A stretch of DNA of 64,000 bases. Origin: Astrocystis sublimbata (taxonomy: Eukaryota; Ascomycota; Sordariomycetes; Xylariales; Xylariaceae). Both the position numbers and the translations under genes were made by a program. The stretch lies in assembly GCA_022453515.1 (NCBI GenBank), contig JAJNNY010000026.1, forward strand, positions 1-64,000. Reading direction: 5' to 3'. Each line of letters starts with the position of its first letter. Positions within the stretch are counted from its first letter, which is position 1. The notes below the pieces were generated by a model. That model was not told the DNA's origin. It worked only from the letters and a program-made list of their open reading frames with translations, and did no database searches. Positions 22,501-62,076 of the stretch are shown here, in pieces.

Positions 22501-22918
22501 GCTCTGTTAACTTGTGTGCTCTGTAAAATCTGCGCATGATGACCGATCATTTCGTACACATAAAATCGTAAATCACTTTTCCTTATCCCCCATAATTGCA
22601 TGCTCGACGGTACCGAAAATATTCCCGAATTTACCAGCAGATTGTGTCAGCCACCATACAGCATGTTGGCCTGTTCCTTGTGATAGAAATATAGCAACTC
22701 TTATACCACCTCTCACGGCTATGCTGATCATTTTGTGCTCGGTCTTCTGAAGAAATCATTGACATGCGCAACTCGTCTCACCATACTCAGACCATAGATA
22801 GTCTGATAACCCCGCGTTCACCGTGCTGGTCGTATCTCCTTTCGTAGCGAAATAAAACCAGCGAAGGAGGCTTTGGAGATAATACATCGACTTGACAATG
22901 TATCAAAAGTCAAGACAC
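16530..22918. other. 6.4-kb gene-free region
   Basis: No ORF here has a credible start plus family features. Contents: the permease promoter (16530 to about 17000); GC-rich sequence with short direct repeats (GCAGGCATGAT near 17466-17510); TACCTAGGTA at 17948; GTACGAGTAC-type palindromes at 18271-18989; then AT-richer sequence. The 22069-22371 plus frame starts with GTG and resembles nothing. No transposase motif, long terminal repeat, tRNA box pair or 5S rRNA was seen. Confidence 0.55.
18271..18365. repeat. Palindromes built on GTACGAGTAC
   Basis: ACTCGTAC and GTACGAGT form 8-bp inverted arms around GG at 18271-18288. ACGAGTACTCGT at 18354-18365 is a perfect 12-bp palindrome. A third, CGAGTAC-A-GTACTCG, lies at 18975-18989. 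Role unknown. Confidence 0.8.
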
Positions 22919-25900
22919 TCATTTGAAAACCTCATCGACCTCACTCAATATGTCGAATACCGCTGCTCTAACGAGTGTTGACTTCTCGGAGCATTTGACA
23001 TCGAGAATGATATTACGGTAATCGTCAACCATACCATCTAGCATGACCTCGGTGTGAAGTTTCAAGTCTTCATGGATGTCTCTTGGCATCTTCGAGAGCT
23101 TAACCTTGGCTGGCTTGTAACAGCTCATCAGCATGGCTCGACTATTCTCTCCAATCTCGGCATTCATCTCAAGCTTGATACGAGCAAATACGCCGCGACC
23201 TATAATATAATTATTAGAAGAATGTTTCGCATATTTAGAATGAATGGTATTGGTACCTTTGTCCTGTCCGCACTCCTCGTATTTTGGTCTCAGATATTCC
23301 TGAATCGCACTGGAAAAGTTTCTGTTCGCGCTCCGCTGCGTCTTTGCAATATCAGATACAAGCGAGGTGATTTTAGTGCCAAAACCGCTGCTGCGTGCTA
23401 TATCTAGGTCATGAAGCATGTTCATGATGTCGTGAAATGCAGCTCTCTCTTGGAGCCTGGACATAATGATGCCTTGGATGTTTTCTTGGTGCTCTTGGCA
23501 AGCCTTAGCATGAATCTCTAGAGCATCCGGAATCTTCTTGGTAAATATTGTTTCCCAGGCGTTACTGATACGTAGAAGGAACGGGGCGACCAAATCTGGA
23601 GGCAATTAGTCTACCTTGCAAAACAAAAAGAAGTCTGGGCTACCAACCTTGGTTGAAGTCTTGAGGTCCTGCTTTAGGTGTGAACACTCCGCTGCCACGA
23701 GTTAGCATTTGGCGAGAATTCACATGACACGGGGACTTACTGGCGACGAAGGGTTGCTCTGTAGCTCCCGCAAGGTAAGCCCCCATCACCCCGCTTGTTA
23801 GTTGGCCATTTGTGAGCAATAGCTGAAGCACAGCCAGCAGCATGAATTGCTGCCCCCTGGAAACACTTGAAGATTGCATTCATGTCGTTGGTCAACTGGT
23901 GATTAAGGCCTTCGTTGGCAATCGTAAGGCGCTGCTTCTCTGTTAGTTTGGCTTCTATCTTCTTGGGGAAACAGCATAATACCATACCTTTCGGAGCTGC
24001 TCGACTTGTATATTTACCCATTTCATCTCAGCTTTCTTGTCCTCATCACTGAGGTAGAATTCGGTACTCTTCTTGGAGGACCAGAGATAGAGTGAGCCGA
24101 GGGTCTGAGAAAGGTCATTCAGGAAGGACTTGGCGTTGCGAAATCTTATTGCCTCAGTCAACCTTCTGACGTGGATTCTGAGCTGTGGAATATCTGTATC
24201 ATCAACGTCGTTGAAACCGTCCGCTACCTCCTTACTGCATAGTTTCTGGTAGGCTCGACTACTGACACAGAAGACAGGCAATGCGGTCGCGACTTGTTCG
24301 TAATCGCGGAGTCCTTCCACCCTGTCCGAGTTCTCGTTGGTATTGTCGGCTTCGTGTTGGTCAAGTCTATCACTGTTAGACATGAAGAAGAAGCCCCCTC
24401 CTTCTCTTCCCCGGGAAAAAAAGGAAACAAGTACATGTTGGCTGAATGACTTACTCTTTCAGACCGAGAGAAAATTGCTCGCGAATCGCTCGCTTGGAGC
24501 ATTCATTTCGTCTGGCAATACACCCAACATGAAGCCTCTCCTTGAGTGTCTCAACTTCCTCTTCGAGGTCATACAGTCGGGTCTGTTCATCGTCTATCTT
24601 GTCCCCGAGAGTTATCTTCTCGTTGGCCGCCGCACTTTTCTTAGACCTGAGATAGTCAGTCATCCGCTGGATGTCCTGCTGTGTCAAGTGATGATCAGCG
24701 GGAAAATCGGGCATGTCTTTCTCTAGGTCGCGCCAATGGTCTTCAGCAGAAACCCATTCAGCATCCTCCTGTCCTTCATCTGCACTGTTTTTTAGCTTGC
24801 GTCGTCTGCTAGCTCTTGGGAGATGAGCTCCCATCTTTCGCTTTGTGGGTGTTACTTTCGGCGGGGTGACTGTTTTCCCCCTCAATTGTTGAGTCCTGCA
24901 TCTATCATAACGATCAATGTGGGAATCCACCTCGTCGACATATTTTTGGATCGCATTCCATCGCCCGGAAATCTTTTCAAGCTCTGAAGATGACCTCAAT
25001 GCATGAAGCCTGCGTATGGCATTGTTCAGTTTACTGGCGTCCTCAGCCAGACCCAATGCATCTGCTGCCTCATCGACGTTGATGTCATCTGTCTTTGAGC
25101 AGACAAATGTTACGTTCGAATAGTTCCCATCCAACTTCAGTTGCTGCTTAAATCTCGTTCCGAGAAGTCTTTGAGCGGCCAGGTCATCGACAGCTCTGGT
25201 AGCCATGGAGACAACGAATAAAGCGTCGCATTTCTCGATATACTTCCCAGCAACAGACGCTCGTGCTGCATTAGAGTCTTGTCCGCCAGGCTGAAGAGAA
25301 TTGACAAGGACATCAGCAACCATACTTGCACGATATTGCGGTGGACAAGGGTATGGATAAGGTAAATCAACGGTGTTTCAGGATAATAACAGCAAAGATT
25401 TCGAGATGAACTTACAAGGTCGACAATGACAGCACCAGTCGTGAGAACATCAGCTTTACTGCGGATGCGAACAACTTTGATCAGAGGCCATAGATCCATG
25501 TCATATGTCGTTTCTTCCTCACCACTGTCGTCCTCGTCGCTGTGGTTCGCATGGCTATCATCACCTTCGTTGCCACCCTCTTCTTCTTCTTCGCCGTTCT
25601 CTTCTACGTCACCATCTTCTCCATCGATTCTTTCACTGGCGGACTGAGCGAAACTCATCTTCTTTCTGCTTTCTATATAAAGCTTCAGGGCCTTGTGTAG
25701 CTTGTTAGCCGTGGGTTTCTGTATGGTCATTGTCGTACCGAGCAATGGTTCCACAGCGTAATGAGCAGCGAGCTCTTCCACGCTCGTGTCTTCTAGGTCA
25801 TCATGAGTGAGATTGGGATAGACGGCTTGGATCTTGGCCCATGCGATCGCGACTTCTGGTTCTTGAAGCTTGGTTTCAAGGGACTTGTCCTCAGACGATT

Positions 25901-26655
25901 GATCAAGATCACTAAATATATACTGCAGCTCACGGAGCCAGTCGTCCTCGGAAATGAACTCGACTTCAGCAACATATTTATGATCGGGATTTTCCGATGA
26001 GTTCCACGATAATTCGGTGACCACAGACGTACAAGCCCGAAAGCAGTTAGTCGGTACCTTGAAAGAATGGGAGTCAGCTTCGCTCATAAGGTGAAAGGAG
26101 AGCACACGAGGATCGACTTTGCAAGCACGCGAATGGATTCCCTCAACTCACTAGCTTCTTTTCGCCTAATAGAGCGTTGATAAGAGAGCTTTTGCCGTGT
26201 CCGGTAGCACCGACAACGCCAATGGTAGTTGCGGGAATCTCCGTTCTCTCTTGAAGATTTTGGATCGACAACAAACGTGCGTTGTCAGCAGAATCTGTAT
26301 CCGACTTCAAGACTTGCATCAACTTCCCCAGGAAGTGCGCACTAGTAGCTTGATAACGGCCGAGCACATCTACTTCAGTGGATTTCATTGCCAGTTGCAG
26401 GCGTGAAAACACACTACCTGAGTCGGTGGCCTGGCCAGGCTGATGAAGATCATGCTGATACCCCGAAGCTTCACCACGACTTAAGCCGAGTTGGTTCTCC
26501 TCCTGACTGTGTCCTGTTTGGCGTCTATCTCTGCGTTCTCTGAAACGACCCTGGAAAGATCCAACAAGTCCATTATCTGACTTGGTGCTCAGAGTACCGT
26601 TGCGCGCACCCATGGGCGGGCACGTGCCGGACCTGTTCAGATTGGCTCTCCACAT
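22919..26655 (-). CDS. Large P-loop GTPase, nuclear GTPase SLIP-GC-like
   Basis: Eight exons (26655-26152, 26057-25416, 25290-24455, 24372-23988, 23931-23741, 23691-23648, 23595-23257, 23199-22919) sum to 1074 codons, 1073 residues, with every junction in phase. The G1 P-loop GATGHGKS is at 149-156. It is followed by the family-like VPTNCFRACTSVVTELSWN, where the Thr can serve as switch I. The G3 box DLPGGQDSN starts near 381 and is created by the second splice. The G4-like SKTD is at 447-450. An acidic low-complexity insert (Glu/Asp/Gly) lies near 310-345. A Lys/Arg-rich segment and a predicted coiled coil (about 560-630) follow. The C-terminal helical region includes DLVAPFLLRISNAWE. This arrangement matches proteins annotated in fungi as SLIP-GC-like, dynamin-superfamily relatives. 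The cellular role in fungi is unknown to me. Confidence 0.82.
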
Positions 26656-27959
26656 GTTGGCTGTGTTGCGGATGAAATGCTAAAGAATGAGGCACATCCC
26701 TAGGCGCAAACAGGTTCAGATGAAATAGTGAATGTGTAATGGATAGTGATCAATGCGAGCACCAGTTGCGTAGGTCAGCGAGTCTCACGTCTTGCCTTCG
26801 CTCAATTGTTCGCGCGGGGCTGTTGGACAATTTCTTGCTGGGCTTTTGGGTCAGGTGCAAGAACTTGCACTATTGTTCGTTATGCTCAGCACCTCAAGCG
26901 TAGGCCAAGACCTCAGCTCAATAGTACCTAGTACCAGTCAGGATATTGTGTCATACCTTCATGCGAAAGATATGACAGGGTAGGTACTGCAAACTACCAG
27001 ACGCAATGTCGATAATTGAGCAGGTAGTTGCTAAAGTGAGATGAAGGATGGGATCCAAGGCTGCATCTTAGCAGCCGCGATGTTGAAGTGGAAGAATATG
27101 AGTGGAAGAGGAGAATGCTGAATCAGTATAGAAGCTATTGGGAGGTCTCAAGTTCTTGCCAAACTTGGGTGGTAAGCTTAAATGTATTAGTGAGATAGAT
27201 GGCTGGTTAAAGCTAGGAATTTTCCGAGGATCGAAGAACAATGAAGAAGGAGGAAAGTGGTTCAGGAGGACCGTTGGCAAAGAAGAGTGTGTATGCTAAT
27301 ATCAGAGAGGTAAGGAAGCAGGAATGTGTGATTTTTCGCAGAATGAACTCCTAGATATTACACGCCAATATGAACCAACCGTGTAGTGAGGAAGTTTGGC
27401 AACACGTCCTCACCAATGGTACTAGGCAGCTTTCATTTGAGAAAAAGCTAGGTGTTGAAGGGAATAGCGTACTTGAAATGTAATGCAAATTAATCAAGTA
27501 ATTGCTACTCATGAGTACTTCTCTTCTTCCGTGTTGGTCGACGATGAGATGTAAGTTGAGCACTTTGGTAGCCTGAGGCAGCTACGGTTGATGCCTCAGT
27601 TATCCCTGTCAGTATGAGCTACCCTGTAAGGTGTACTTACCATCTTAGGTAAGGCAACTACTCGCAAGGTATCTACCTAGAGCTTGTATCCATTGATGCC
27701 CCACATCTAGCGTCACCGCCTACATAGTACCAAACACAGACAAGACCTTTGAAGGCAGGGGCAGGAGGTAGGTACCTACAGCTAAGCTAGAGTAGGTACA
27801 TTATTAGGTACCTACTTAGTACCTACCTTCTAGGAGGTATCTGGCGATACATCTTGCTGCTTTATTCTTGGAATCAGTTACTAGGTACCATCGCATTGCA
27901 ACTTTGCCACCACAACATGAGCTTCTAGCCTTACACAGAAAACAGAGGAGCGCATCAAC
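26656..27959. other. Divergent intergenic region, GTPase / CFIm25
   Basis: 1.3 kb lies between the divergent ATGs at 26655 and 27960. The part from 27600 to 27850 is dense in CTACCTA/TAGGTACCTA motifs. Short frames on both strands lack any family resemblance. Confidence 0.6.
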
Positions 27960-28837
27960 ATGTCCACAGTCACAACAACCGCGCTGCAAAGCGCCCATCC
28001 CCCCACGATACCTCTCCCTTTCAACGCCAACCAGCCGACCACCATCCGCCTGTACCCGCTATCGAACTACACATTTGGCGTCAAGGAGACACAGCCAGAG
28101 GAGGACCCGTCCGTCATCGCGCGACTGAAGCGCCTCGAGGAGCACTACTCGGCCCATGGCATGCGCCGCACATGCGAGGGCATCCTCGTCTGCCACGAGC
28201 ACAACCACCCGCACATATTGATGCTGCAGATCGCCAACGCCTTCTTCAAGCTACCTGGCGACTACCTGCGGCCTGAGGACGACGAGGTCGAGGGCTTCAA
28301 GACGCGCCTGGACGAGCGCCTGGCCCCCGTCGGCCGCCTCGGCGAGGGCGAGGAGGCCGCCAACTGGCAGATCGGCGACTGTCTGGCCCAGTGGTGGCGG
28401 CCCAACTTCGAGACGTTCATGTACCCCTTCATCCCAGCCCACATCACGCGGCCCAAGGAATGCAAGAAGCTCTACTTTATCCAGCTTCCGGAGAGCAGTA
28501 CGTAAACCGGCATTGTTGCCGCCTCATGTTATCAGTGTGAATGTGCACGACTAATGCTCAGCTATTTACTACAGAAATCCTCAGCGTCCCCAAGAACATG
28601 AAGCTGCTGGCTGTGCCTCTCTTCGAACTCTACGATAACACAGCTCGCTACGGTCCCCAGCTCTCAGCAATCCCACACCTGCTAAGTCGGTATAACTTCG
28701 AGTTCGTGAATGAGGCTGGAGAGGTGGTCGCTGCGACTCCGGGAATTGGCCCTGACGGGTATGTACCCAAGACAAAGGTGCTTTCCGGTGGAGACGAGGA
28801 CATGAAGGATGTGAAGGCGGAGAATGGCGCGAGCTGA
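27960..28837 (+). CDS. Pre-mRNA cleavage factor Im 25-kDa subunit (CFIm25/NUDT21)
   Basis: CFIm25 binds UGUA elements in pre-mRNA and guides poly(A)-site choice as part of cleavage factor I in the nucleus. Two exons (27960-28497, 28575-28837) with a 77-nt intron (GTACGT donor, CTACAG acceptor) give 266 residues. The Nudix-type fold region runs from about residue 30 (IRLYPLSNYTFGVKE) to the end. It includes RRTCEGILVCHEHNHPHILMLQ, FFKLPGDYLRPEDDEVEGFK and, across the splice, KILSVPKNMKLLAVPLFELYDN, all strong family segments. As usual for this subunit the catalytic Nudix glutamates are not kept, so it binds rather than hydrolyses. The C-terminal tail is fungal-specific and acidic. It is convergent with the YjbQ gene, 216 bases away. 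Confidence 0.95.
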
Positions 28838-29053
28838 GCCATTGTTATATGGGGCATTGATCGTACGTTGGGGACAAGGTTATCTGTAATACCACGGCGT
28901 AAGGCGTCATCAAGAATTTGGCGCAGACAGCAAACAGGATGCTGGCCCATTCACGCCAGCTTTATAGACATGCAATTGAACTTGAGACTGTGTATATTTC
29001 AGGAACGGGTGTGGGTATACGGATCATTTCCCCTCTCCTCTTACACACACGGC

Positions 29054-29827
29054 TCAGGCCTTCTCTCCTTGAATCGTCGCCATCACCCGGCGTCTCGAGG
29101 GGTCAGTTCGGAACTCGAGATACCAAATGCCCTGCCACGTTCCGGTTGCCTGCTAGAGTCAACAACCACAGGTATGCAAGATGCTGTTTCTTACGGGGAG
29201 ACCTACCAGTTTTCCGTCCTTGATGGGGATAGTAACACTGGCGCCGATCAATGCGCTCTTGACGTGAGCCTGTGTGCAGAGCATGTCAACTTGAGAAGAA
29301 TTCTCATGCTATCTTCACTCCTCTCCACCGAACTGGTCGAGACGTACCGGCATGTCATCGGGTCCCTCGGCGCTATGTCTGTACAGCTCTTGGCCCTTGG
29401 GACCAGCCTCAGGCACTATCCTATCCAGTGCGTCGCTCATGTCGGCGCGCACGTCTTCGTCCCAGTTCTCGTTGAGACTGAGCGCGGCGCTCGTGTGCTG
29501 GATGAACAGGTTGAGCAGGCCGACCTTGTACTGTCTGATCTCAGGCAGGGCCTCCAGGACCTCGGAGGTGACGAGGTAGGAGCCGCGCGACTTCGGCGGG
29601 AGCGAGAACTGCTTCTGGAACCACATGGTCACGGGCGCTGGTGTGCAAGGTGAAATTACGTCACGTTTGTGCACTGCTGCTCCGGGGGCTGAGCTGAAGG
29701 GATTGAGATAGGCGAGTGGGAGGGCCCAGAGATAATGGAACAGTCCTGGAAACAAGGAGACGAGAAGCAGGAAGAAGAGCGCGAGTGTGAGGAGATTCTG
29801 AGAAGAGGTCGAGGTGGATGACGGCAT
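29054..29827 (-). CDS. YjbQ/UPF0047-family protein with hydrophobic leader
   Basis: Three exons (29827-29348, 29269-29207, 29149-29054) give 212 residues. The core from Met68 (MWFQKQFSLPPKSRG) is about 145 residues, the size of the bacterial YjbQ family, for which thiamine-phosphate synthase activity has been reported in Escherichia coli. Conserved segments are LFIQHTSAALSLNENWDEDV, YRHSAEGPDDMP, and after splicing AHVKSALIGASVTIPIKDG and GTWQGIWYLEF. The His and Asp/Glu residues of the presumed metal site are present. The in-frame ATG at 29827 adds a 67-residue leader with a strong hydrophobic span (LLTLALFFLLLVSLFPGLF), which could be a membrane anchor or secretory signal. If the ATG at 29626 is used the protein is soluble. 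The last intron ends in CTAGCAG, a tandem acceptor; I used the CAG. Confidence 0.88.
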
Positions 29828-30405
29828 TTGCGATGCTGGCTTGGTTGCGGGTCAAGTTTGGTTGGTGTTTTTTGGTGGGGTTCCTTGCATGTTTGGGGGC
29901 AATTCGAGCACTTACTTGACTTGAGGTGCTGTCGTCGCAGCAAGCTCTAATCTACCAAAGGTATCTTGTTCCACCCATTGGACTTTGCGATATTTTGTTT
30001 TGTTTGAGCTCCGCAGTAGGTACCTACATAGAGTACAGTACATGCAATGTACACATCTCCCCTATCCTACTACTAGTATTAGGTAGGTACCTCTACCTAC
30101 CTACGTCGTACCTAGGTACTATGTATGTGCTTGTTGATTTTCATCTCATATGGCCGTTCGACGAAGACTGAGGTTCTAGCCACATTCACTGTTTGTTATG
30201 TCAAGCAGCCCAGGACACAGCAGGTGATTCTTACAGATAGGTAATTGGAGTGCTTGCTTGAAACGACGACTCTATCTCGTCTTGTAGTGGATTGATATGT
30301 ACAACAACTGGCCTTGCTCACGTGCAATTCGTCCAGTCCAGATAATCCAGGTACATTGCTGCGCTGTGCAGTGCGCCCAGCAGTTCCTCAAACAGTAGCA
30401 TTGGT
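29828..30405. other. Intergenic region upstream of YjbQ-family gene
   Basis: This holds the promoter of the YjbQ-family gene and the 3' flank of NDUFS6. It includes a run of TAGGTAGGTACC motifs at 30016-30118 with one exact TACCTAGGTA (30109-30118). No gene seen. Confidence 0.65.
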
Positions 30406-31092
30406 CTAGGCGAGCGGATATGACGTCTGGGGGAGGGATTCGAGATGCTTTCGGTTGTGCTCGTTGGCCTGGGATATGTCCTGTCAGCTCCGTCTATCCA
30501 ACATACGGCTCCTCTCCCCTTTCATCGGCTGTACGCCCCAGGTTCTCCTGGTGTCGACCGCCTGGGCACTTACATATGGAAGTCCGCAGTAGTTGCAGGT
30601 GGCTATCTCTGCCTTGTCCGTGTTGATGAAGATCTTGGGGTGTCCAGCAGGCCCGCCGCCTCCGTCACACGCCACCACGCGCTCGTGGGTCCAGCGGACG
30701 GGTTGCCTGTGGATGAGCTCGATGGCGGCCTGGGAAGCGGGCTTTGGGCCAGTTAACCACCGGCCAATTGGCTCCTATCGCGGTGCGTATCTCACCTGGA
30801 GGTCGAAATCGGTTTGCTCGAACCGGGGGCCGGCCATGGCGGTGGCGCGGGGCCGCTGGCTCCTCGACCAGATCTCGGTACGGTTGGGCGCCTGCTTGAG
30901 GCCGCGCTCACTGTTCTCGGCGAGCCCCAGGCTCTCTGCCTCGCCCGTCGTCTCGGGGGTAGTCTCACCCTTCACGCTGACCGGGTTCTGCTCACAGAGC
31001 CGGGCGGACACGGCGAAGGTGCGTCGGGCGGCGGCACATGATGTTGGCCTCGGAAGCCTGGCGGCGCTTCGGATCGGAATGCGCGATAGCAT
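30406..31092 (-). CDS. NADH:ubiquinone oxidoreductase zinc subunit (NDUFS6-type)
   Basis: This is an accessory zinc-binding subunit of mitochondrial complex I, in the matrix arm. Three exons (31092-30796, 30729-30574, 30468-30406) give 171 residues, close to the fungal 18-kDa form. The introns of 66 and 105 nt both fall in phase 0. Residues 1-35 are rich in Arg, Ala and Ser without acids (it starts MLSRIPIRSAARL), a mitochondrial presequence. The zinc domain runs from VACDGGGG through HPKIFINTDKAEIATCNYCGLPY, supplying the Cys, His and CX2C ligands of the family. The last exon encodes ANEHNRKHLESLPQTSYPLA, the usual C-terminus. The divergent partner is the MPP6-like gene. Confidence 0.95.
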
Positions 31093-31891
31093 TGTCGTCG
31101 GGAGGTGCAGTCAACGGAGGGAATCGGAATGACCCTAATAGAGGTGATCTAGATAGATGTTGGACCACGATATCGGGGATGTTGAGCACCTTACTCGGCG
31201 ATTGTAGCTTCGAGAGATGCGCCCGGGCTCGGGCCACACCGGGCATGCCTGCCACTGGGGAGACTGCGGCCGAGAAGGCCTAACCTTCCAAGGTTAGCTT
31301 GCAAGTATCTACTGTAGTCGGTAGGTAAGGCGACCTAGGCCAGCTCTGACTGGCCCAAGTAGAAAGTGTGGGTCTGCTGGTCGGGCTAGAAGGTATCACT
31401 GTGTCAGTAAGGTTAGGCTACGAGTACTTAAGGCATGTGCACCTTCCTCAGGGGCCAAGCCTGCCGAGCCTACCTACATGTAGGTACCCAAAGTATCTTA
31501 GGTCTGTGTCTATACCTTGGGTCCTTGGCTCCCTTGGTACAATATCTAGGTAGGTGGTGCGCGAAGGTACTTGTCGCAAAGTCTGATGTTGGGTCTCAAC
31601 GAAGTATTGTTTACACAGGCTGATGGGATTTCTTGTTTTTGATTCTCACCTCCCTCATCACAGCTTCACATTTATAAATCTTCGACTCCCACAAGCCGCC
31701 CACAGGTTCTCTGAGTGAAACATTGCCGTGACTGAGGCGCCAATCCTCCAACCTTTGCCCTCTTTGGCAATTGGCCTCCTCACCTTGTATCTTGCGAAGT
31801 CGAGCTGCTGAGGCACCCTTGCGCATCATCCCTTACCTACCTCTACCTGGCTCTATTCGCCGCGCGATACTCGCAGCAGAGGTCGCCCAAC
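31093..31891. promoter_or_regulatory. Shared divergent promoter region, NDUFS6 / MPP6-like
   Basis: 799 bases lie between the divergent ATGs at 31092 and 31892. The middle (31290-31560) is rich in TAGGTA-type repeats. I see no intervening gene. Confidence 0.6.
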
Positions 31892-32840
31892 ATGGCGTCC
31901 CCGGGCACTCCCAAGACCATGTCTTCCAGACTACTGACTATGAAGTTCATGCAGAGAGCCGCTGCTTCGACACCCTCTTCCGCCCCGAGCACTCCCACTC
32001 CCCCGCCCAGTGATCAATCCAGCAAGCGTCGCAAGGTCTCCCACAACGACACGCCGTCAAAGAGCGTAGACTCGATTGTAAACCAAGCGGCTATCAGGAA
32101 GGCCATCGCCGACGAGGAGAAGAAAGTCGAGCGTGCTAAGCTCAAGCGTGCTGAGGAGTTGGGCGACGCCCACTGGGTGCTTGAGGTGCCTCCGCAGACC
32201 AGGATCCTTGCGCCGCGACCCCCCTTGAATGTTGTACAGGTTGGCTTTGCGCAGATCGACTCCTCTGCTGCGACCGGAGATGATTCCGATTCAGACGGTA
32301 TCTCACATGACAGTGTACCAGCCCTCCGGCGATACAACATGGACAAGAAAATGGTGTGTCATACAACTTCATGGGCATGGTCGGACGGTGTTCTTGCCAT
32401 TTGCCGTCTGCCACCTGTCCCTATCTTGGCTGACATTGATTCAGAAAACAAAACAATCTACGAAAAATGACAGTGACTCAGACTCCGATTCAGGCTCTGA
32501 TTCCGATTCCGATTCCGACTCTGGCAATTCGTCGTCGCAAGAAACCTCCGGGCGACAGTCGTTCGGCTCCAATTCACAGCCCTCTTCTACGACGCAATCC
32601 CCCGCTCGGAAGGTGCCGAAGAGAAAGAAAAGCCTAGAGCAGCTCAAGGCCAAAGAATTCGCAGAGAAGCGACGGAAGAAGGAGATTAAGCTGAGTAAAC
32701 AAATAGGTGCGATTTCGTCTATCTCGTCAGGAGGCGGACCCTCCCCGCGTCAGACCGTGAACTTCACTTGTTTCAAATGTGGACAGGCTGGCCACAAAGC
32801 CTTAGACTGCAAACAAAACGGAAACCGGCAGAAACGATAG
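31892..32840 (+). CDS. MPP6-like nuclear exosome cofactor with C-terminal CCHC zinc knuckle
   Basis: Two exons (31892-32353 and 32445-32840; 91-nt intron, GTGTGT donor, ATTCAG acceptor) give 285 residues. Residues about 10-21 (MSSRLLTMKFMQ) are the signature of M-phase phosphoprotein 6, which helps dock the Mtr4 helicase on the nuclear RNA exosome. A conserved helix segment, ELGDAHWVLEVPP, follows near 90. After the splice is an Asp/Ser repeat stretch of about 20 residues, then a Lys-rich helical part. Near the C-terminus is one retroviral-type zinc knuckle, CFKCGQAGHKALDC (CX2CX4HX4C), a single-stranded nucleic-acid binder. The intron is well supported: both phases agree and reading through it hits a stop. 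A nuclear RNA-surveillance role is inferred from the MPP6 motif. Confidence 0.85.
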
Positions 32841-35800
32841 ACCGCTACTATGTATTGCTTGTGATGGCGGCACGTGTTGCATGAAAACGGTTCAGTCGGC
32901 TGCTGCTGTTCCTGTTGTTCGTCTTGGGCATGATAACTAGGCATATAATCTTCGCAGTCATATCCGGCTTCAGCAGTGAAATTTTGGCTGCCTCGCCGAG
33001 GAGCCGAGAATCGACTTGCGCATGATTCCGTACACCTTGGGGATGGACACGGGAACGCGTCCATTGGTTGGAAAGATGTAGTACGGTAGGAATGCAGTAA
33101 TATAAAAATATGGCCCAGTCTTCTTGTGCAACATAACACCACTGCCGAGGTTGATGAATTGAGATTTCCCAATCGTTCCGCACCGGCTATCCATTACCAC
33201 TAGGTAGTTCAACATGAACAGTGCTTACCAAAACACACCTGTGATCTCGATCGGCACGCCTAGATTTCAATCCATGTGCTCGTCCGTATCAGGCGGAGTT
33301 GGATGATTCGTTCACCAGTCTTGAGACTGCGGTAAGCATGGCACACTGTCGACCTGTCCCAACATGAGTCCGTCTCACGGGCGCGGTGACCACTTGACAC
33401 GGCTTTTGATACTACTCGCCTCCTCGAAGCGTTGGAGTAGAACTTGCCATGGCTATTAAGGTATCACGACACGTTGACAGGCACTCCACTCCTCGGCCAA
33501 TAGGCTTGGTACTCATTTCACTGGCGGAGGGATGTTGTTGCTTTTCCCAATCATCCGGCAGCGCAGTCTCGAGGCCAGACCCGTGGATATGTGATCTGCG
33601 GTTCTGGCAGCGGAGGCCAGGTTGACTGTTGGCTCAGAACCCCTGTACTCGCCTCTGAGCTACCCAGTCCAAGATCACGGCCTTGTTGGTTCTTTCGTTA
33701 GGTAGCGTCTTTGGCATAATCCTAACATCTTGCCCCCCCCTCGATTCACGAGACCGGAACGAAGCCCGAAGGGAGCCTGACGTGACGGTGTAGCTGTGAC
33801 CATGGGCCGTTGGCACAGCATATACACCAAGACATGACGATCACATAAACTTCAACAAGACCCCATGTTTGTATGATTTCATGTTAAGACTTATCGAATC
33901 TGATGTTATGATACAATATCGCGGACATTGATGGGCGGCTGGCTACACAGTGGCATGGCTGCGGCGGCGGCCAATATTGAAAGCCACAATAACTAGCTCG
34001 GCGCAGAGGCGTGGGACATTGCATTGAGCCTACAGTAGATGATACCTACCTACTTAGTCAATAAAGCGCCGCGCGTCGTTCGTTGTAGTTGTTGGGTAGA
34101 AGCTCTGATAGCAGACGCTTGTTGGTGACCTCGAAATAGGTGTGTTGCACGCAGGCGAGTTCTTATCCCTGACCTTATTGCAGATGAGTCTGGTTCCAAT
34201 GAAAAGTAAACAGGCGAAAAAGCTGCTGCAGGTCATTCGCATTTGCCTCTGCCTCTCCCCGCCCCTGGCCACCATCTGATGCTGAACATATCCATTCATA
34301 TGCTGAACATGTATGCATGCGATGCTAACAAGGGACGCTCCGTTAAGGCGGGTTAGCCTGCTAGGAGGTAAGCAAGACGGCGATGCCTGGGCGAAGTCAC
34401 GTTGGCCACGTGTTGGCCGACTATTACATGCCTCCGATCTGCAGATGTCCGTTGGGCTATATTAGGAAGAAACCTGAAGAGCTGCAAGTATTGTGTAGGT
34501 ACGTATACTTACCTAGGTAGACTGGAGACTAACTGGGAGAGGAGGTCGAGTTACGGTCTTGTCTTTTATCACGGACTACCCACCCTCGATCTGCATAAAT
34601 TCCCCGATATCCTTCAAGTTCTGGCCATGACTTGTGTCTACCGCCAAAGCGATTCATTGTTCTGCGGCCTGCACTTAGGTAGTGAGCAGATTTAGCACAA
34701 GGGAGCCGTAGCCAACAACGCCGGGCTTGGGTTCAGGACATAGGTCCTACCCCTGGCCACGCTCGCGGTTCGCTGAACGATTGTTCTCGTCGTTTTCCGG
34801 CACAGGTTTCACTTTGTGCTTTGCAGGATCCTGACATGCGAGGCTCCCTCGACACGTATTCAAACACCCACGACCAAAGAGTTACTTACGTATACACAAT
34901 CGATCCTCAAGTTTTGGGTTTCACCCCCAGATTGGGTATCTACCTATCTTAGTCGATCATCGCCACATCCTTGTCCGCCCAGGCATACAGGCTCCTCGTC
35001 ATCAATTGAACCCCAACGGCTGCCCTTCCGCAAGTCATTGGCATACATACATAAGGTACGAGGTAGTGTGAGTTGTGAGTTGTGTGTGGTGTGCCGGCAA
35101 CGTGTCTGCCCGCCACTGCAAGATTTCTACTGTAGGTACCTACTTACATCTCCGCAATATACGCAAGGGGTCGGTGACACCCCAACCTCACATAAGAAAA
35201 GCAACAGGTGAACTCCAATTGACCGATCATCACCGTACCACTCACACTCACTCTTGGCTGACTCATCTCGGGAGTTCAATCAAGTACCTACTTTAGTACT
35301 TACGCACCAAACAACGTCTCACAGCCGGCGCGTCGGGCCCTGTCTTAGATATTTATATAACCTTGCAGCAGCACCTCCGCGATCGCGGCAACCTCGCATC
35401 TCGTCTGAGAAAACTCTGGAACCTGGTCGAGCATCCCTCGACTCACACTCTCGAGTAAGGCGACCCCGGCATCCCGGTAGTATAAAGGTCTTGGCCGCCC
35501 AGATCTCACAGGCCGAGGCTACCTAGGCAAGCCCGAAGTCGTTACTTATATCTATCTATCTACCTATCTACTACCTAGGCAGTATCTCCATAATACTACC
35601 TCGCACCCAGACATACAGTACAGCACATGGTGCTCGAGTCTGACGCCTCAGCCCGCAGCAGCAGACTCGCAGTGCTTTTTCTCGATTCGAACCGTGGGCT
35701 GCGCCTTTTTGGGGCAGAGCACCTGCAGTTCCCAGACTCGGCACGACGTCCCTTGCTGAACTACCCCCAAACCGGAGCGCCCTTCCCCATTATTAGATAC

Positions 35801-43061: not shown

Positions 43062-46000
43062 AGCTGCCCGCGCAGCTCGCCGCCAAGACGTCTTCCCAAA
43101 AGAAAAGGAAGATTGCCCCGCGACCGCCTGCTGCAGGAGATGAGGACATAGACAGCATACACGCAGACATCCCCGTCCAGTCCTGCGAGCAGGACAACGA
43201 TCCCAGCTTCTCCTTCTCCTTCTCCTCGTCGAGCGTGGACGTGCTGCCCGCCTTGCCCGCCTTGCCCGCCTCGCCCGCCTACCTCCGTGCCGGCTCCCTT
43301 CCGCCCGCCTCGAGCCTCCCGCCCCGTCTGCAGACACGCCACTCGGGCTCTCCAGCCCTCGCCGAGGACGGCTCGTCCGTCGCCAGCTCGCCCTCGGGCG
43401 CCTACGCCGACCTCTCTCTCCACGACCGTGGCGCCGATACAGCAGCTCCCGACCTTGCTGCCCCCCATCGCAGAGCATCCTCGCCCTTCACCAAGACCGC
43501 CCATCATCGTGCCATCATGGGCGGCGCCGCCGACTTCCCCGAACGTGCATCCTCGCCGCTCAAACGCCGCGCTTCGAGCATGGAACCCGACGTCGACACA
43601 CAAGATGCCGACGTCGATGTGGACATGATCAACGTCCCGGCTTCTGACACAACCTGTGCAAACTCGCCCTCCTCCTTGCATCAAAACGTATCGAGCACGG
43701 CCGATTCTTCCGAGAACGCGGCCGGCGTGCAGCCATCTACACAGTCCACGACAGCCGACGACGTCAGTATGGCGTCTGCTGTTGATGCAACTCCGGGTAC
43801 TTACATCGGCCTCTTGCTCCTGTCTTGTTCCACGATCCTGGCCCACTAACATGTCTCAGCCTTACAACCTCCCGAATCGGTCGAAGCTCACATAACTGAG
43901 ATTCGCACCCTCGTCGAAGACTTCAATCGGACACCTATCGACGACGGACAAGAGTGCTACATCGTGTCGAGGCAGTGGCTCGCGTGCGTACCCCTCGATT
44001 CGACGAAGAAGCAGGCCGCTGGCGAAGCGTCTGCAATCCCGCCGGTCGATAACTCAGACATCATAGAAGAGGTGATTGATGATCCTTGTGTTGGTAAGGG
44101 AGTCGCCGACGTTATGAGGAGGAAGTTTGTCCGTCTGAAGCCGGGATACGGGGATGAGTACTTTCTTCCGTTCCCACCGGCGGCCTGGGAGCTGCTGATG
44201 CGATGGCCCGGCCTGAAAGATGGCCAGCTCCCCATTCGCCGTACAGCCCTCGACACTAGTGAACATCGCGATGGGACAAATGTTCAATTTGAATACCATC
44301 CTCTTGTCCTCACTGTTCACCGCCTCTGGTCTGCTCACAGCCAGGTTCCGGTTGATGCGTCATTGAAGGCCATGGACCCTGCCCCTCCCAGGCTTGCTCG
44401 TAGCAGCAACATGAAGTTTCAGGCTTTCCTGAAGCAGGCGAAGGCAATGACCAAAATCGATCTATCCCAGAGGGTTCGGGGTTGGCAAATACCGAACGCT
44501 ACAGATCAGTACGCAGCTGGCACCAGCCAACCCGAGAGTACTACTGAGTCTGAATCGCTATGGACTCGTTTGCTTGTGGACGTGGGGTCCTTCAACGAAC
44601 TAGAGAGAAATGCCGACAGGCTCATGATAGATTTCGGCGACCTGACCAACGACCCCAACAATAAGTCGGGCAAGACTGAGTCCAATCAGACCCTGCGTTC
44701 CCTCGGCATTGCCAAAGATCAGCCTATTGTTCTTGATCCTCACGAGGAGGGCACACAATGGACTTCAAATTATATCCCGTCCGATACCGCAACGCTCCCA
44801 ACCCGAACCAGCTCTACAACCCTGACCGTTCAAAATCACGTGTCTCAGGGTGGCCAGACTCCGGTTTCTTCGAGCGTTGTCACGCGCGGCAGGGCAGCCA
44901 AGTCTGGGCGAACTCTGGGGTGCGTAGGCCTGAGCAACCTTGGTAATACATGTTATATGAACGCCGCCCTCCAGTGTCTTAGGAGTGTCGAGGAGTTGTC
45001 GAAATACTTCCTAGCTGGTGAGTGGGAGAAGGAGTTGAACAAGGCCAACATTCTTGCTCATAATGGAGATGTTGCTGCGGCTTATGCCCACCTGCTCAAG
45101 GAGATCCACAAGGATCCGCCTCCCAGCTCTTTCGCGCCGCGACAGTTCAAAAATACCATTGGTCGTCATGCTCCCCAGTTCTCGGGTTACGGGCAACAAG
45201 ACTCCCAAGAGTTCCTTGGTTTCTTGCTTGACGGCCTCCAAGAAGATCTAAGTCGCGTGAAGAAAAAGCCCTACATTGAAAAGCCAGACTCTACTGATGA
45301 AATGATTGGCGATCCCGCCGCCATTCGAAAAATGGCCGACGAGGTTTGGGATATTACGAGAAAAAGGGATGACTCGGTGATCGCAGATCTATTTACTGGC
45401 CTCTACAAGTCGACGTTGGTCTGTCCGGAGTGTGACAAAGTCAGCATCACGTTTGATCCGTTTAACAACCTTACACTACAGTTGCCGACCGCAAACAAAT
45501 GGAACCACACAGTCAAATTCTTCCCACTCAATGGTCAGCCCATTGACATAAGAGTTGAATTAGATAAGCATGACAACATTAGGGCTTTGAAGCAATTCGT
45601 CGCGGCGCGGACTGGGGTTTCGATTGAACGACTCCATGGGTGCGAGGAGTGGGCGAAGAAGTTTTATAAGCATTATCTTGATAATTTGACCGCAAGCGAC
45701 GAGATCACGGGCAACGACAACGCGTGGGTATTCGAGTTGGAGGACAAACCTACGAATTATCCTGGAACCGCGGCAAAGCCACAGAAGTACCGATCCCTGC
45801 TCGATGACAGTGCACCTGCGCCCGTCTCTTGGGACGATGATCCAGACGCGGCACGACTCCTTGTCCCAGTCTTGCATCGAAAACCCGGGACGGCCAAGGG
45901 CTACCAACCCCGCAAGTGGGAAAGTGTCTGCATACCTCACTTTATCATGGTTACTCCGCAAGAGGCAAGAAGTGAAGACATCATTCGCCGCAAAGTCTTA

Positions 46001-48217
46001 GAAAAGGTAGCAACATTCACCAAGCACCGGTTTTTTGCGCGCCTGGACGAGTCCGACGGTTCCGAAACAACAGATCCCGAGATAATCGGGCCTAACGGCT
46101 CGGACACAGCTTCGTCCATAGGAGGAAAGGTCGTCGCTCAGTCGGATGGAAGCGAGGATGATGTTGTTGATGTGCGAATGATAGACTCAACCGATGATAA
46201 GGGAATCGTTAGAGGGTACGTACCATACAACTTCATTCTATCGCATAGCCCATATGTTAACTCCTCTTCCGACAGCTCTTTATTGCAAAATCGAATCAAG
46301 ACTAGGAGGCCAGCGTGGATAAACCCGAAGACCTTACTCCCACCACCATTGCAGAACCTATTTGACATGGGGATTTGCACGGAAACTTCGAGTCCCATAC
46401 CTACGGGCAGTAATAGTGTCTCAGACGACAAAGACTATCCTAGGCTCTCATCTCGGATTCCAGCAGAGTCACCCTCGTCCGAGGACCAAGCTGACGATGC
46501 AACGAACGGTACAGCCTCAAACAACGACAGCAGCTCTGATGAAGCGACTCAACGTAGCATCGAGATGCCAATGACACGTATGAATGAAGAAAGTGATGAC
46601 GACAGTGAACCACCCATCAAGGTAATTCGAAACCCTTCACTCAATTCATGATCAACAAGCCGCGTATAGATTTGAGACAATAGTACATTCATGCTGACTC
46701 AAGCGCAGTCATATCCTCATCGGCCCAAAAACCAGCGTGCAAAGGGGAATACCAAGCTTCCCAATGGCCGCAAGAAGTTGAAGAATCGACAATATGGCAG
46801 TAAAGGGGCCAAAAAGCGGTTACGTCAGCAACAGCGCCAACAACAGGAGAAACAGAATGCCATCAATTTTGAAGATCCCGCTGATCTAGATGATCCAGTG
46901 CCCGATGGCGGCCCACTCATTCGACTGAAGGAAGGCCTTGTTGTTGATTGGTCAGATAGTGCGTACGAAGAAATATTCGGTGGTGGCTCATTAGAAACAT
47001 GGGGAAGCTGCGATGTTCTCCCTGATCCAGATCTGGAAAAGGCTCAAGAAGCACGTGCTAGGCGCAGGAAGCATGGCATTACATTAGAGGAATGCCTCGA
47101 CGAGTTCGAGCGGGACGAGGTGCTTTCGGAACAAGACATGTGGTATTGCCCTCGTTGCAAGGAACATCGCCGGGCCAGCAAGAAACTGGACCTTTGGAAG
47201 ACGCCAGATATCTTGATCATCCATCTGAAACGTTTCAGTTCTAGTGGGTACCGACGGGATAAGTTGGAAACTCTCGTGGAATTTCCCACTGAGAATCTAG
47301 ATATCACTTCGCGCGTACTGCAAACAGAGGATGGGAAACAAGAGAAATATGACCTGATTGGGGTTGACTGTCACTATGGAGGATTAGGAGGAGGTCATTA
47401 CACAGCTTACGCCAAAAACTTCAACGATGGACAGTGGTATTCTTACAATGGTAAGTTGATAGACAACCCCTTTCCGCCGTAGCCATGCTAATGGTCCGCA
47501 GATTCGTCAGTGTCCAAAGTCACCACTGACCGCATTGTGGACTCTTCGGCCTACATGTTATTCTATCGCCGACAATCCACCGCTCCTCTGGGCGGTTCCA
47601 AGTTGCACAGTGTCCTCGAACGCTTTGCAGATGACGATACGCTCGAATTGGGGGAAGGTCAGCGTCTCGGCGAAGGCTTCTTCCCGGATGGGTCGTCGAG
47701 CGCGTTACAAGGAGCAGGAGTTTCTCGCCTGGCCGGAAATCATGGTTCTAGTGGAGAGCTGCATGAAGGCTTTGGATTTCAGTCAGGACAGATCATTGAC
47801 GAGGATGAAGGCATCGACCTTGAAGATTCGAAGCCAAGCGCACAACCATTTCTCGTCAACACGTGGAATTTCGCAAACCTCGAGAATATGCCCACCGGTG
47901 GAGGCAGCCCCTTTGACTCGGGCGCTGCTTCCGACGAAGCTCAACATGACTCTTCTGGAGACGAAAGGGCGCTTAGCCACCGGGATGATTTCGAATCCAA
48001 TTATCCAGGGATGTCGGAGTACAGACTATCACCAACAAATCCTCCTTCATACGTAGAGCTTCCAACGACCGACCATGTGGAACAATCTCTATCCACTGAC
48101 AGGAACGACATCACACATGAAGTCCATGAGGTTTTACCAGATGGTGAACAGGAGCCACAATCAGATGATGCGGCGGAGATTCACCTAGATGACAGTGATA
48201 AGATCAGGGTCCCCTAG
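43062..48217 (+). CDS. UBP12: Ubiquitin carboxyl-terminal hydrolase, Ubp12/USP4-15 type; 5' end unresolved
   Basis: This is a cysteine-protease deubiquitinase. Exons at 43062-43796, 43860-46621, 46709-47450 and 47502-48217 join in phase and encode at least 1651 residues. Order: a disordered Ser/Pro-rich N-terminus with RASSPLKRRASS; a DUSP domain (QECYIVSRQWLACVP to WPGLKDGQLP); the Cys box GLSNLGNTCYMNAALQCL with the catalytic Cys codon at 44951-44953; two CPXC zinc-ribbon pairs (CPECDKV, CPRCKEH); a long basic/acidic insert splitting the catalytic domain; the His box GGGHYTAYAKN with His at 47396-47398; and an acidic tail. The first exon shown opens after a CAG at 59-61 of the 43000s and needs one base from an earlier exon. 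Its start was not found. The first in-frame ATG, at about 43517, is possible but would discard an open, coding-like stretch. Confidence 0.9.
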
Positions 48218-59290: not shown

Positions 59291-62076
59291 ATGCCACGGT
59301 CCGCCATTATGGATAGTAATACCTGCAATGTTATCTATGTGGACCGCAACGTCTGCGACAACCGGTCCATCGAGTCGCCCGACGAGGAACTGCTGGAGAT
59401 CGGAGAGCTGAGGGGCAATCTGAAATTGTTATTGGATGCTTTTGGCAATGGTGAGTTGGTAGTATGCGTCCTGTGTATCTTGTTTACTAATCTTACTTGC
59501 TACAGTCCATGCATGCTCGAATGGTGCCCGGTGTCTAGAAATACTCGTCAACTTGCATGATGCTTCTATGACCGAGCTGAGGCCAACGCTCATTTTCATA
59601 GACACGCCACAAGATGAGGTACCAGCTGAACGAGTATCTGTGTCACGCGACCCCTCACCATATTCTACAGTCCCCGCCAACAGTGAGAAAGACAGCAACA
59701 CGATAAAGGACTTATATGGGATTGGTCTACTGGAGAAACTCGTTTATGAAACGCAGTTGAGGAGTCTTTCGAAACTGGTCTTACCTATCCCGGTTGTCAG
59801 TTTCTCTTTGTTACACACCCCACCAGCAACAAGCAGAACACTGGAGAATCCGTTGCGGGCTTCGTATGCCGAGTATCTTGCCGAGGCCCCAGAATCCTCT
59901 CCCAATTCCATGACAAGCCGCGCTTTGCTGCGGAGGTGCCTCGATTCGGGTGCTGTAGATGTCATGGCCAGCCCGATTCATACCAAATCCCTCACAACGC
60001 TAGAGGTTCACGCTTATCGAGCGCACAAAGAAGTGCTGAAGGACTAACAAGCCTTCCTGGAGATTCGAAAGGGTCGGAAACGATCCTGGGTAGGAATCCA
60101 TGAGGAAAAGCCGTTCGCGTACTTGAGGGAAGCTATGGTATCAGGCTTGATGAGCGGCATATGTCGTCCGGGCGAAGAGAGCGAGAGAAATATCTCCACA
60201 GTGAAGATCGACTTCGCGTCCAAGCCCCGTGCCGAAATCGAGGAGGCACCAGGGAAATGGCACTTCTGTGCCCCTAGTTTTGACGATGACTCGCTTCTCA
60301 TTGCGGCCACCCTGATGTTTAAGCATGCGCTAGCGATGCCGGAGTTGGAGAAATGGCGGATATCCACAGGTAAATAACAGCTTGAGACAACGAAAGTCAT
60401 TGGGCTTGTTGTATCACCTAGAGCTAACACGCAGACAGATCAGCTGACGACGTTTCTCGTTGCATGCCGCGCCGCGTACAACCAATTTGTTCCCTACCAT
60501 AATTTCCGACACGCAGTCGATGTGCTGCAGGCTACATTTGATTTCCTGGTACACATCGGAGCTTTGCCGCCGTATCCTCCAACATCGGACGCTCCGTCTC
60601 CCGCAGAGGCGCCCCCAATTACCTCATTGATCAAACCATTTGAAGCTCTGGCGCTCCTTGTTAGTGCTATTGGTCACGACGTGGGTCACCCGGGCGTGAA
60701 CAATGGGTTCCTCGTCGTTCTCAATGCTCCGTTGGCTCAATTGTACAATGATCGCTCTGTTCTCGAATCGTTTCACTGTGCAGCCTATTCCCAGATCCTC
60801 AGAAGGCATTGGCCTCGGGTATTCGAAGACACAAAGATGCGCACCTTGATGATCAGTTCCATCCTCGCAACGGACATGGGTCTACACTTTGACTACATGA
60901 AGAGATTGCATGATCTACAGAAGAAGTTGAAGTCAGAACCTAACATTCACCAATGGTCTGAACGCACTATCGAGGATCAGAAGGCTTTGATATGTTCATT
61001 GTTGATCAAATGCGCGGATATCAGCAACGTCGTAAGTTGTGCTTCTACCACGGAGCAAATAGTAATTGTTGTCTAACCCGTGACTGTAGGCTCGCAAATA
61101 CGATACCGCTCTTCAATGGATGAACATTCTGTGTGATGAGTTCTCAAGACAAGCTGCGATGGAAGAAGAGATTGGTATCCCATCATCGCTTATCTCACCA
61201 CCGAAAAAGGACTTTCTGTCACTCGCCAAAGCACAGCTCAAATTCGTGACACTGTTTGCCATCCCACTGTTCCAAGGCGTGGCTGAAGTGCTCCCTCAAA
61301 TGCAATATACAGTTTCGGAGATCGACAAAAATACGCACCATTTTGAGAAAGCAGTTGAGAAAATCCCAAAAATGACGGAGGAGAAATTGAGACTTTTCAC
61401 TGAACAGCCCCTTGATTCCGACGTCATGAAGTTGGTCGAAAGCCTAGCCATGGAAGACGAACATTTTTCTGTGGGCTTAGCAGAAGCCGATCTGGTTCCA
61501 GTCCCAACGAAGCATGCCGAAATAAAGGAAGCTACCTCTGCGCCCCCAGGTAAACTGAGCCAGGTCCCTGCCATGCCATACAAAGAGATCAGCGGCATTA
61601 GCACCTCGTTGGACTACGTGGCGGATTTCGCCGCTAGTGACCCTTTCCACGCCGGTGGACACGAGGATAGATTGATGGGGGCACAAGATGACAAACAACG
61701 CTCGTGCGAAGCAGCCACCGAGAGCAACTCTGCCCCTGGTTCCAGCGACTGGCAGTCCCAAGCCACAAGCGCTACAACCGGTAAGATGCCGCTTTCGCCG
61801 AGTACGCAGGGGACGAGCATCGTGAGCCAGGACTCGTCAGACAGGCCGTCGAGTGATCCCACAACCGCGGTGACGGCCCCCGACTCGTCCCGCACCACCA
61901 CGCCGGTTGCGGTAGTCGATACGACTCATCCCTCGGAAGAGGATTACAATGGTACCTTGAAACCCGACGGGACTCTTAAGAAGAAGACGAGTCGTTTTAG
62001 GATGAACGTCTCTACGTTTTTCAGACGGAACAAAGGCGCAAGCTCTCCGGCTTCTGGCGGGTCGGGTAGCTATTAA
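59291..62076 (+). CDS. PDE2: Class I 3',5'-cyclic nucleotide phosphodiesterase (PDE2-like), with an in-frame stop
   Basis: This HD-domain phosphodiesterase would hydrolyse cAMP and so restrain protein kinase A signalling. Exons 59291-59450, 59506-60369, 60439-61031 and 61090-62076 give 868 codons in one frame with matching phases. The catalytic domain has HNFRHAVDV (about 362), HDVGHPGVNN (about 421) and KCADISN before the third intron, the metal-binding His/Asp set. A Ser/Thr-rich, basic-ended tail follows. The N-terminal 230 residues include a receiver-like segment (LRPTLIFIDTPQDE). Codon 234 is TAA (60045-60047). The frame continues unbroken after it with QAFLEIRKGRKRSWVG, so the stop cuts the protein before the catalytic domain. 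It may be a real nonsense change, a sequence error, or lie inside a weak 57-nt intron. ATG 59291 is first; 59309 is an alternative. Confidence 0.9.
60045..60047 (+). other. In-frame TAA within the phosphodiesterase frame
   Basis: TAA follows GAC and precedes CAA GCC TTC in the same frame that is open from 59508 to 60369. One C-to-T change from CAA would explain it; this is the CpA-to-TpA direction of repeat-induced point mutation. The surrounding GGACTAACAA also matches a fungal branch-site consensus, so an unrecognised intron is the main alternative. Confidence 0.85.

Follow-up and report, generated by a model that had tools for sequence, protein, structure and literature searches.

The only class I (PDEase_I) cAMP phosphodiesterase gene found in the genome assembly of Astrocystis sublimbata, a sordariomycete of the family Xylariaceae, is interrupted by an in-frame TAA ahead of its catalytic domain, and this codon is probably a genuine and recent nonsense allele. 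The sequence analyzed, here called the window, comprises positions 1 to 64,000 of contig C109 (505,521 bases) in a genome of 42.6 Mb and 189 contigs. An earlier note on the window had described a stop codon interrupting an otherwise intact phosphodiesterase and had listed several ways to account for it. That observation was confirmed, and the note's account of the gene, its frame, and the stop held. Of the options that it listed, a nonsense change is the best supported, as the gene is otherwise intact and all 118 listed homologues that cover the site are continuous there; the 57-nt intron and the RIP-type origin that it also proposed did not survive.

An in-frame stop within a conserved coding sequence

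The gene consists of four exons (Table 1) separated by three standard introns of 55, 69, and 58 nt, whose phases agree. Counted from the ATG at 59291, the frame is 868 codons long including the terminal stop, and the TAA is codon 234; counted from the ATG at 59309, the start used by the deposited model, it is 862 codons long and the TAA is codon 228. In an alignment, the start methionine of the orthologues P0002, P0005, and P0006 corresponds to the earlier of these two. The four exons, the 868-codon frame, and the splice phases described in the earlier note were all reproduced.

Table 1. Coordinates of the phosphodiesterase gene, its in-frame stop, and the candidate introns and restart codon around it
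Feature	Positions	Strand	Remark
Class I (PDE2/PdeH-type) cAMP phosphodiesterase gene	59291..62076	+	four exons, one in-frame stop inside
Exon 1, deposited model	59309..59450	+	in-frame ATG also at 59291
Exon 2	59506..60369	+	carries the stop
Exon 3	60439..61031	+	HD-type catalytic domain begins
Exon 4	61090..62076	+	remaining catalytic domain and tail; terminal stop TAA, then C
In-frame TAA	60045..60047	+	alignment column is Gln in 107/118 and Arg in 11/118 homologues (among the matches listed)
30-nt "intron" implied by deposited P0001, GTGCTG...CTAAC...GAG	60033..60062	+	almost certainly an annotation artefact
57-nt intron of the earlier note, GTTCAC...GAG	60006..60062	+	judged not real
First in-frame ATG 3' of the stop	60135..60137	+	restart would retain the whole catalytic domain (604 aa)

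We translated the two sides of the stop and searched them separately. The 633 codons downstream contain no second stop and no frameshift, and their product matched PDEase_I in a Pfam search (E 1.6e-64); this piece alone scored 218.4 bits against PF00233, for which the curated cutoff is 24.8. It is also 100% identical, over its full length, to the deposited A. sublimbata protein P0001 (F4808DRAFT_450836). The 233-aa upstream piece matched no Pfam model. The HD-type motifs YHNFRHAVDV, GHDVGHPG, ATDMGLHF, and KCADISN are all present, and their His and Asp columns, which we take to be the metal ligands, are invariant in 23 aligned rows, in agreement with the earlier statement that the ligands are retained. 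Since the PDEase_I match falls in the downstream piece, a product truncated after 233 residues would, as had been predicted, be expected to lack the catalytic domain.

Conservation at the stop was assessed on the protein models of relatives. The search matched 1,633 homologues, of which 120 listed ones were examined, the deposited protein of this same gene included. Among these listed matches, 118 of the 119 other homologues span the stop site, all of them without a gap there, and the sole one to fall short of it, P0113, is a 526-aa fragment. The covering homologues have only two residues, Gln and Arg, in the column of the stop itself (Table 1), and 96 of the 118 have Gln in the column that follows; Xylaria longipes, for example, reads VVKDQQAFLE where the window encodes VLKD-stop-QAFLE. 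Because every covering homologue is gapless here and the column is one of Gln or Arg, the stop lies in conserved coding sequence and not in an intron of the family, and because all 118 are continuous across the site, the interrupted frame is not a product of chance. This continuity and the PDEase_I match downstream bear out the claim that both sides of the TAA are coding in one frame. Two record names from another species, Hypoxylon texense, seem to be shifted: its homologue of the neighboring ubiquitin hydrolase (USP) gene, P0153, is named 3',5'-cyclic-nucleotide phosphodiesterase, and its phosphodiesterase homologue, P0047, is named serine/threonine protein kinase.

The stop position falls in a predicted helix that ends the N-terminal domain (residues 213 to 241 in the numbering of P0002; mean pLDDT of the model, 65.3). 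The predicted order of strands and helices in this domain resembles a degenerate alternating receiver-type fold. Neither in 59309-60044 nor in the homologues did any Pfam model, receiver models included, match this domain credibly, and hits to the catalytic domain took up the PDB comparisons, so a receiver-like N-terminal domain stays an idea.

Other explanations for the stop

A consensus error, with a sense codon in the organism and a T introduced by assembly or base calling, is unlikely, although it was reasonable to list it among the options. In its favor, the base is known from one assembly only, and the rest of the gene is intact. Against this, C109 is a long contig, and the residual errors of the assembly appear to be of another kind. 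Contig C32 (34,536 bases) is in part redundant with C179; across 17,034 columns of alignment the two never differ by a substitution, only at 29 gap columns, and 25 of these adjoin an identical base. The comparison is made up of two stretches, of 10,377 and 6,657 columns, that overlap on C179, so that the zero is a loose upper bound drawn from about 10.4 kb of C179 counted partly twice. Residual errors thus look like indels in short homopolymers, whereas the stop is a substitution, and this makes an assembly error at the stop improbable within that loose bound.

The second of the two stretches covers the part of C179 that the first does, but on the opposite strand, for which reason C32 looks like a fold-back leftover: its positions 17,522 to 34,536 are a redundant, folded-back copy of C179:671,985-682,358 with small indels only, and its first 17,521 bases gave no alignment to the stretch of C179 compared. 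Within this copy sits a second, frame-broken version of the adenylate cyclase catalytic region; it appears to be a remnant of assembly and not a duplicated gene.

Rather more doubtful is a leaky stop, at which UAA-C would be read through at a low level with insertion of Tyr or Gln to give some full-length enzyme. The frame downstream is conserved, and the hexanucleotide after the stop, CAAGCC, fits five of the six bases of the readthrough consensus, CAR-NBA or CAR-NNA (PMC4446449); its last base, however, is C in place of the final A that both forms of the consensus carry. The CAA is moreover the codon of the next conserved Gln, so this context is inherited coding sequence, and as none of the 118 covering homologue models is broken at the site, relatives do not share the stop as they would in programmed readthrough, and there is no sign of selection for leakiness. 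In yeast, tRNA-Tyr and tRNA-Gln are said to be the most efficient readers of UAA, but in the assay of the paper itself only extra tRNA-Tyr, and not tRNA-Gln(UUG), clearly raised UAA readthrough (PMC6614816).

A search of the genome for tRNAs gave at least 62 matches, and ARAGORN, run on 50 of these 62 places, called a tRNA at 44 (two of them, L049 and L050, without a resolved anticodon) and none at 6. No TTA anticodon was present among the tRNAs called at the 50 places. At least five tRNA-Gln genes were found, three with a CTG anticodon, one with TTG, and one intron-bearing gene that received no ARAGORN call and was read by eye as TTG; a UAA-reading tRNA-Gln was not among them. An altered code was considered and rejected: the terminal stop of the same gene is likewise TAA followed by C, and TAA is therefore not simply reassigned. 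On contig C171, tRNA matches of equal score at 12419, 14486, 40835, and 42900 form two pairs about 28.4 kb apart and alike in orientation, a pattern suggestive of a large direct duplication on this contig or of an assembly repeat.

That a short intron splices out the stop is very unlikely, even though one version of it is implied by the public protein. An exact spliced match of P0001 to the genome requires four introns (55, 30, 69, and 58 nt), of which the second covers the stop, and the deposited protein accordingly lacks ten residues around the stop that are kept in all 118 covering homologues listed. Judged on sequence, this 30-nt intron is almost certainly an annotation artefact. Both it and the 57-nt candidate contain a CTRAY branch motif, namely the CTAAC at 60044-60048, and the earlier note was correct in its description of this branch site, the poor GTTCAC donor, and the GAG acceptor of the 57-nt intron. 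The motif is created by the stop codon itself, and the coincidence is mild: when 26 codons (25 Gln codons and the stop) were tested, 3 yielded a CTRAY motif with T in first place; 14 had a GT-AG pair with a length divisible by three inside 57 nt, and 5 had one inside 30 nt.

In Fusarium, 2,022 introns span 42 to 529 nt, a range that includes 57 nt and excludes 30 nt; donor position 5 is G in 93% of them and the acceptor begins with Y in 93%, RAG acceptors making up 5.7% (PMC5677156). Neither candidate agrees with this donor and acceptor consensus, position 5 being T in the 30-nt and A in the 57-nt version and the acceptor GAG in both. Scores computed from the published Fusarium donor frequencies (PMC5677156) were -6.0 bits for GTGCTG and -5.4 bits for GTTCAC, compared with 0.3 to 5.6 bits for the donors of the seven other introns of the window (those of this gene and of the USP neighbor), which are 51 to 87 nt long and all end in YAG. 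The two donors score like typical exonic GTs, given that 59% of the gene's 125 exonic GTs do at least as well as the 30-nt donor and 50% at least as well as the 57-nt donor. We also enumerated all frame-keeping, stop-avoiding GT-AG pairs with a donor in 59900-60044 and an acceptor in 60048-60199. Among the 33 options obtained, the deposited 30-nt intron is the shortest, and the 13 that measure up to 120 nt all lack a YAG acceptor. The ten residues that the 30-nt intron would drop belong to the predicted helix, and the residues encoded by 60006-60062, whose presence in homologues had been put in question, are kept in all 118 covering homologues (17 of the 19 codons aligned).

The USP neighbor (43517-48214; P0121) provides a contrast; the exact spliced match of its deposited protein has four introns, of 63, 60, 87, and 51 nt, each length being divisible by three. 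The deposited protein omits 60 nt, 46216-46275, at a place where 12 of 14 aligned relatives are without the extra residues; the relatives P0125 and P0132 have inserts of about 17 residues there.

We give little credence to the idea that the stop works as a switch governed by leakage, yielding either a free N-terminal regulatory domain or the full phosphodiesterase, with readthrough of UAA-CAAG at a low rate that varies with conditions, reminiscent of yeast PDE2, setting cAMP levels. Less credible again is a restart at the in-frame ATG 3' of the stop, or a transcription start within exon 2, either of which would yield a separate catalytic protein and leave the N-terminal domain on its own. The ATG to which the earlier note pointed does exist and retains the whole PDEase_I domain, and the stop lies between the N-terminal and catalytic domains. 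An out-of-frame ATG at 60100 comes earlier, however, no covering homologue among the 118 examined is split at the stop site, and ribosomes generally re-initiate poorly once they have translated a frame of 233 codons.

A-to-I editing of the mRNA, as in Fusarium, can be dismissed almost entirely: although the organism is a sordariomycete and a predicted fold places the As of the UAA in a hairpin loop of sequence AACA, with a U at position -1, the preferred setting for this editing (PMC11156358), the fold is no better than those of shuffled sequences (z -0.65; 47/200 as good), a UAA edited to UGA remains a stop (PMC11156358), a double edit would give Trp, which is found in 0/118 covering homologues at this column, and TAA is the noncorrectable allele in Fusarium CHE1 (PMC11169179). 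Premature-stop correction converts UAG to UGG by one edit, and editing is rejected here because a UAA is not correctable in that way. RIP was likewise rejected as the origin of the change, since only its direction fits; the composite index of the gene is negative (-0.59), and a DNA search of the genome found no second copy.

Age and expected consequences of the probable nonsense allele

Returning to the nonsense allele as the preferred reading, the gene has no other break and the sequence flanking the stop has not drifted, so the change looks recent; its origin may lie either in nature or in culture. Several measures could instead reflect an older relaxation of constraint. The end branch of this phosphodiesterase is 0.18, compared with 0.041 to 0.099 in its four nearest relatives (Xylaria) and a median of 0.11 in the 26-row tree. 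Tajima relative-rate tests across three partitions, four sister species, and four outgroups gave chi-square values from 0.02 to 19.1, several of them significant, with a range of 0.06 to 6.4 in the catalytic domain alone. Two departures occur at positions that are invariant in 110 other homologues, residues 729 and 732 of P0001, both in the C-terminal tail and outside the catalytic domain; more than two such departures are seen in only 4 of the 111 homologues compared, and the median is 0. The mean distance to nine shared species is 0.259 for the phosphodiesterase and 0.258 for the neighboring USP gene, a ratio of 1.00, the top value among the ten species compared (about 0.83 to 0.99 in the others). 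We read these figures as a mild acceleration that is largely common to the USP gene, and not as proof of a recent origin. As far as its sequence goes, nothing in the gene, as we read it, clearly points to a prolonged release from constraint.

A nonsense change at this position would replace a conserved Gln or Arg in the long predicted helix with which the N-terminal domain closes. The ribosome would reach codon 233 and then release a fragment without the HD catalytic domain, and the mRNA, with two introns downstream of the stop, would probably also be a target of nonsense-mediated decay. High-affinity phosphodiesterase activity would be lost as a result, and cAMP would then be broken down mainly by the low-affinity PDE1-type enzyme.

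A search of the genome revealed no other PDEase_I gene. Contig C35 carries a PDEase_II (PDE1-type) gene that has no internal stop, and the adenylate cyclase catalytic domain lies in a 2,087-aa open frame on C179 and again on the redundant C32. With PDEase_II and adenylate cyclase both in place, the cAMP pathway has not been lost as a whole. A null of the high-affinity enzyme is tolerable, to judge from Magnaporthe oryzae, in which a delta-pdeH mutant is viable: its colony growth is reported as not significantly different on four media, though on complete medium the mycelium underwent autolysis once 14 days or more had passed (PMC3046207). PDE2 is listed among the few genes repeatedly mutated during adaptation of yeast to glucose limitation (PMC7880691).

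Relation to known systems

As biology, a nonsense allele is ordinary, and this one is useful mainly as a caution about annotation. The record F4808DRAFT_450836 looks intact because its probably false 30-nt intron bypasses the stop, and surveys built on such models would overlook the probable loss of a high-affinity cAMP phosphodiesterase. Should the allele be genuine and of natural origin, the strain would represent a naturally occurring near-null of PDE2 among filamentous fungi.

The gene shares its domain order and HD-type motifs with the fungal class I phosphodiesterases of the PDE2/PdeH type, from which this copy differs by an in-frame stop before the catalytic domain. The Pyricularia (Magnaporthe) oryzae protein P0079, which we take to be the PDEH of the Magnaporthe papers, is 57% identical to the downstream piece, and yeast caPDE2 (PDB 6cpt) is the best PDB match both by sequence profile and by a Foldseek comparison of the orthologue model.

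The stop of yeast PDE2 at which readthrough occurs is the terminal one, in keeping with the wording of the corresponding paper on C-terminal extensions. The six bases after it, CAA-GAA, drove robust readthrough in reporter constructs (PMC4446449). The two genes belong to the same family, and CAAG comes after the stop in both. Unlike the yeast stop, the one described here is internal, precedes the catalytic domain, and is followed by a context that lacks one consensus base, the likeness being one of sequence only. The Fusarium genes PUK1, AMD1, and CHE1, which undergo premature-stop correction, also have an in-frame stop in a sordariomycete gene, but there UAG is edited to UGG, whereas the codon here is UAA and the stop is absent from all covering homologue models.

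The loss of PDE2 in laboratory-evolved Saccharomyces cerevisiae is likewise an ordinary mutation of a negative regulator of cAMP/PKA signaling (PMC7880691). The present case differs in concerning one filamentous fungus, known from its sequence alone; if the allele arose in culture, it would be a parallel to the repeated loss of PDE2 in laboratory yeast.
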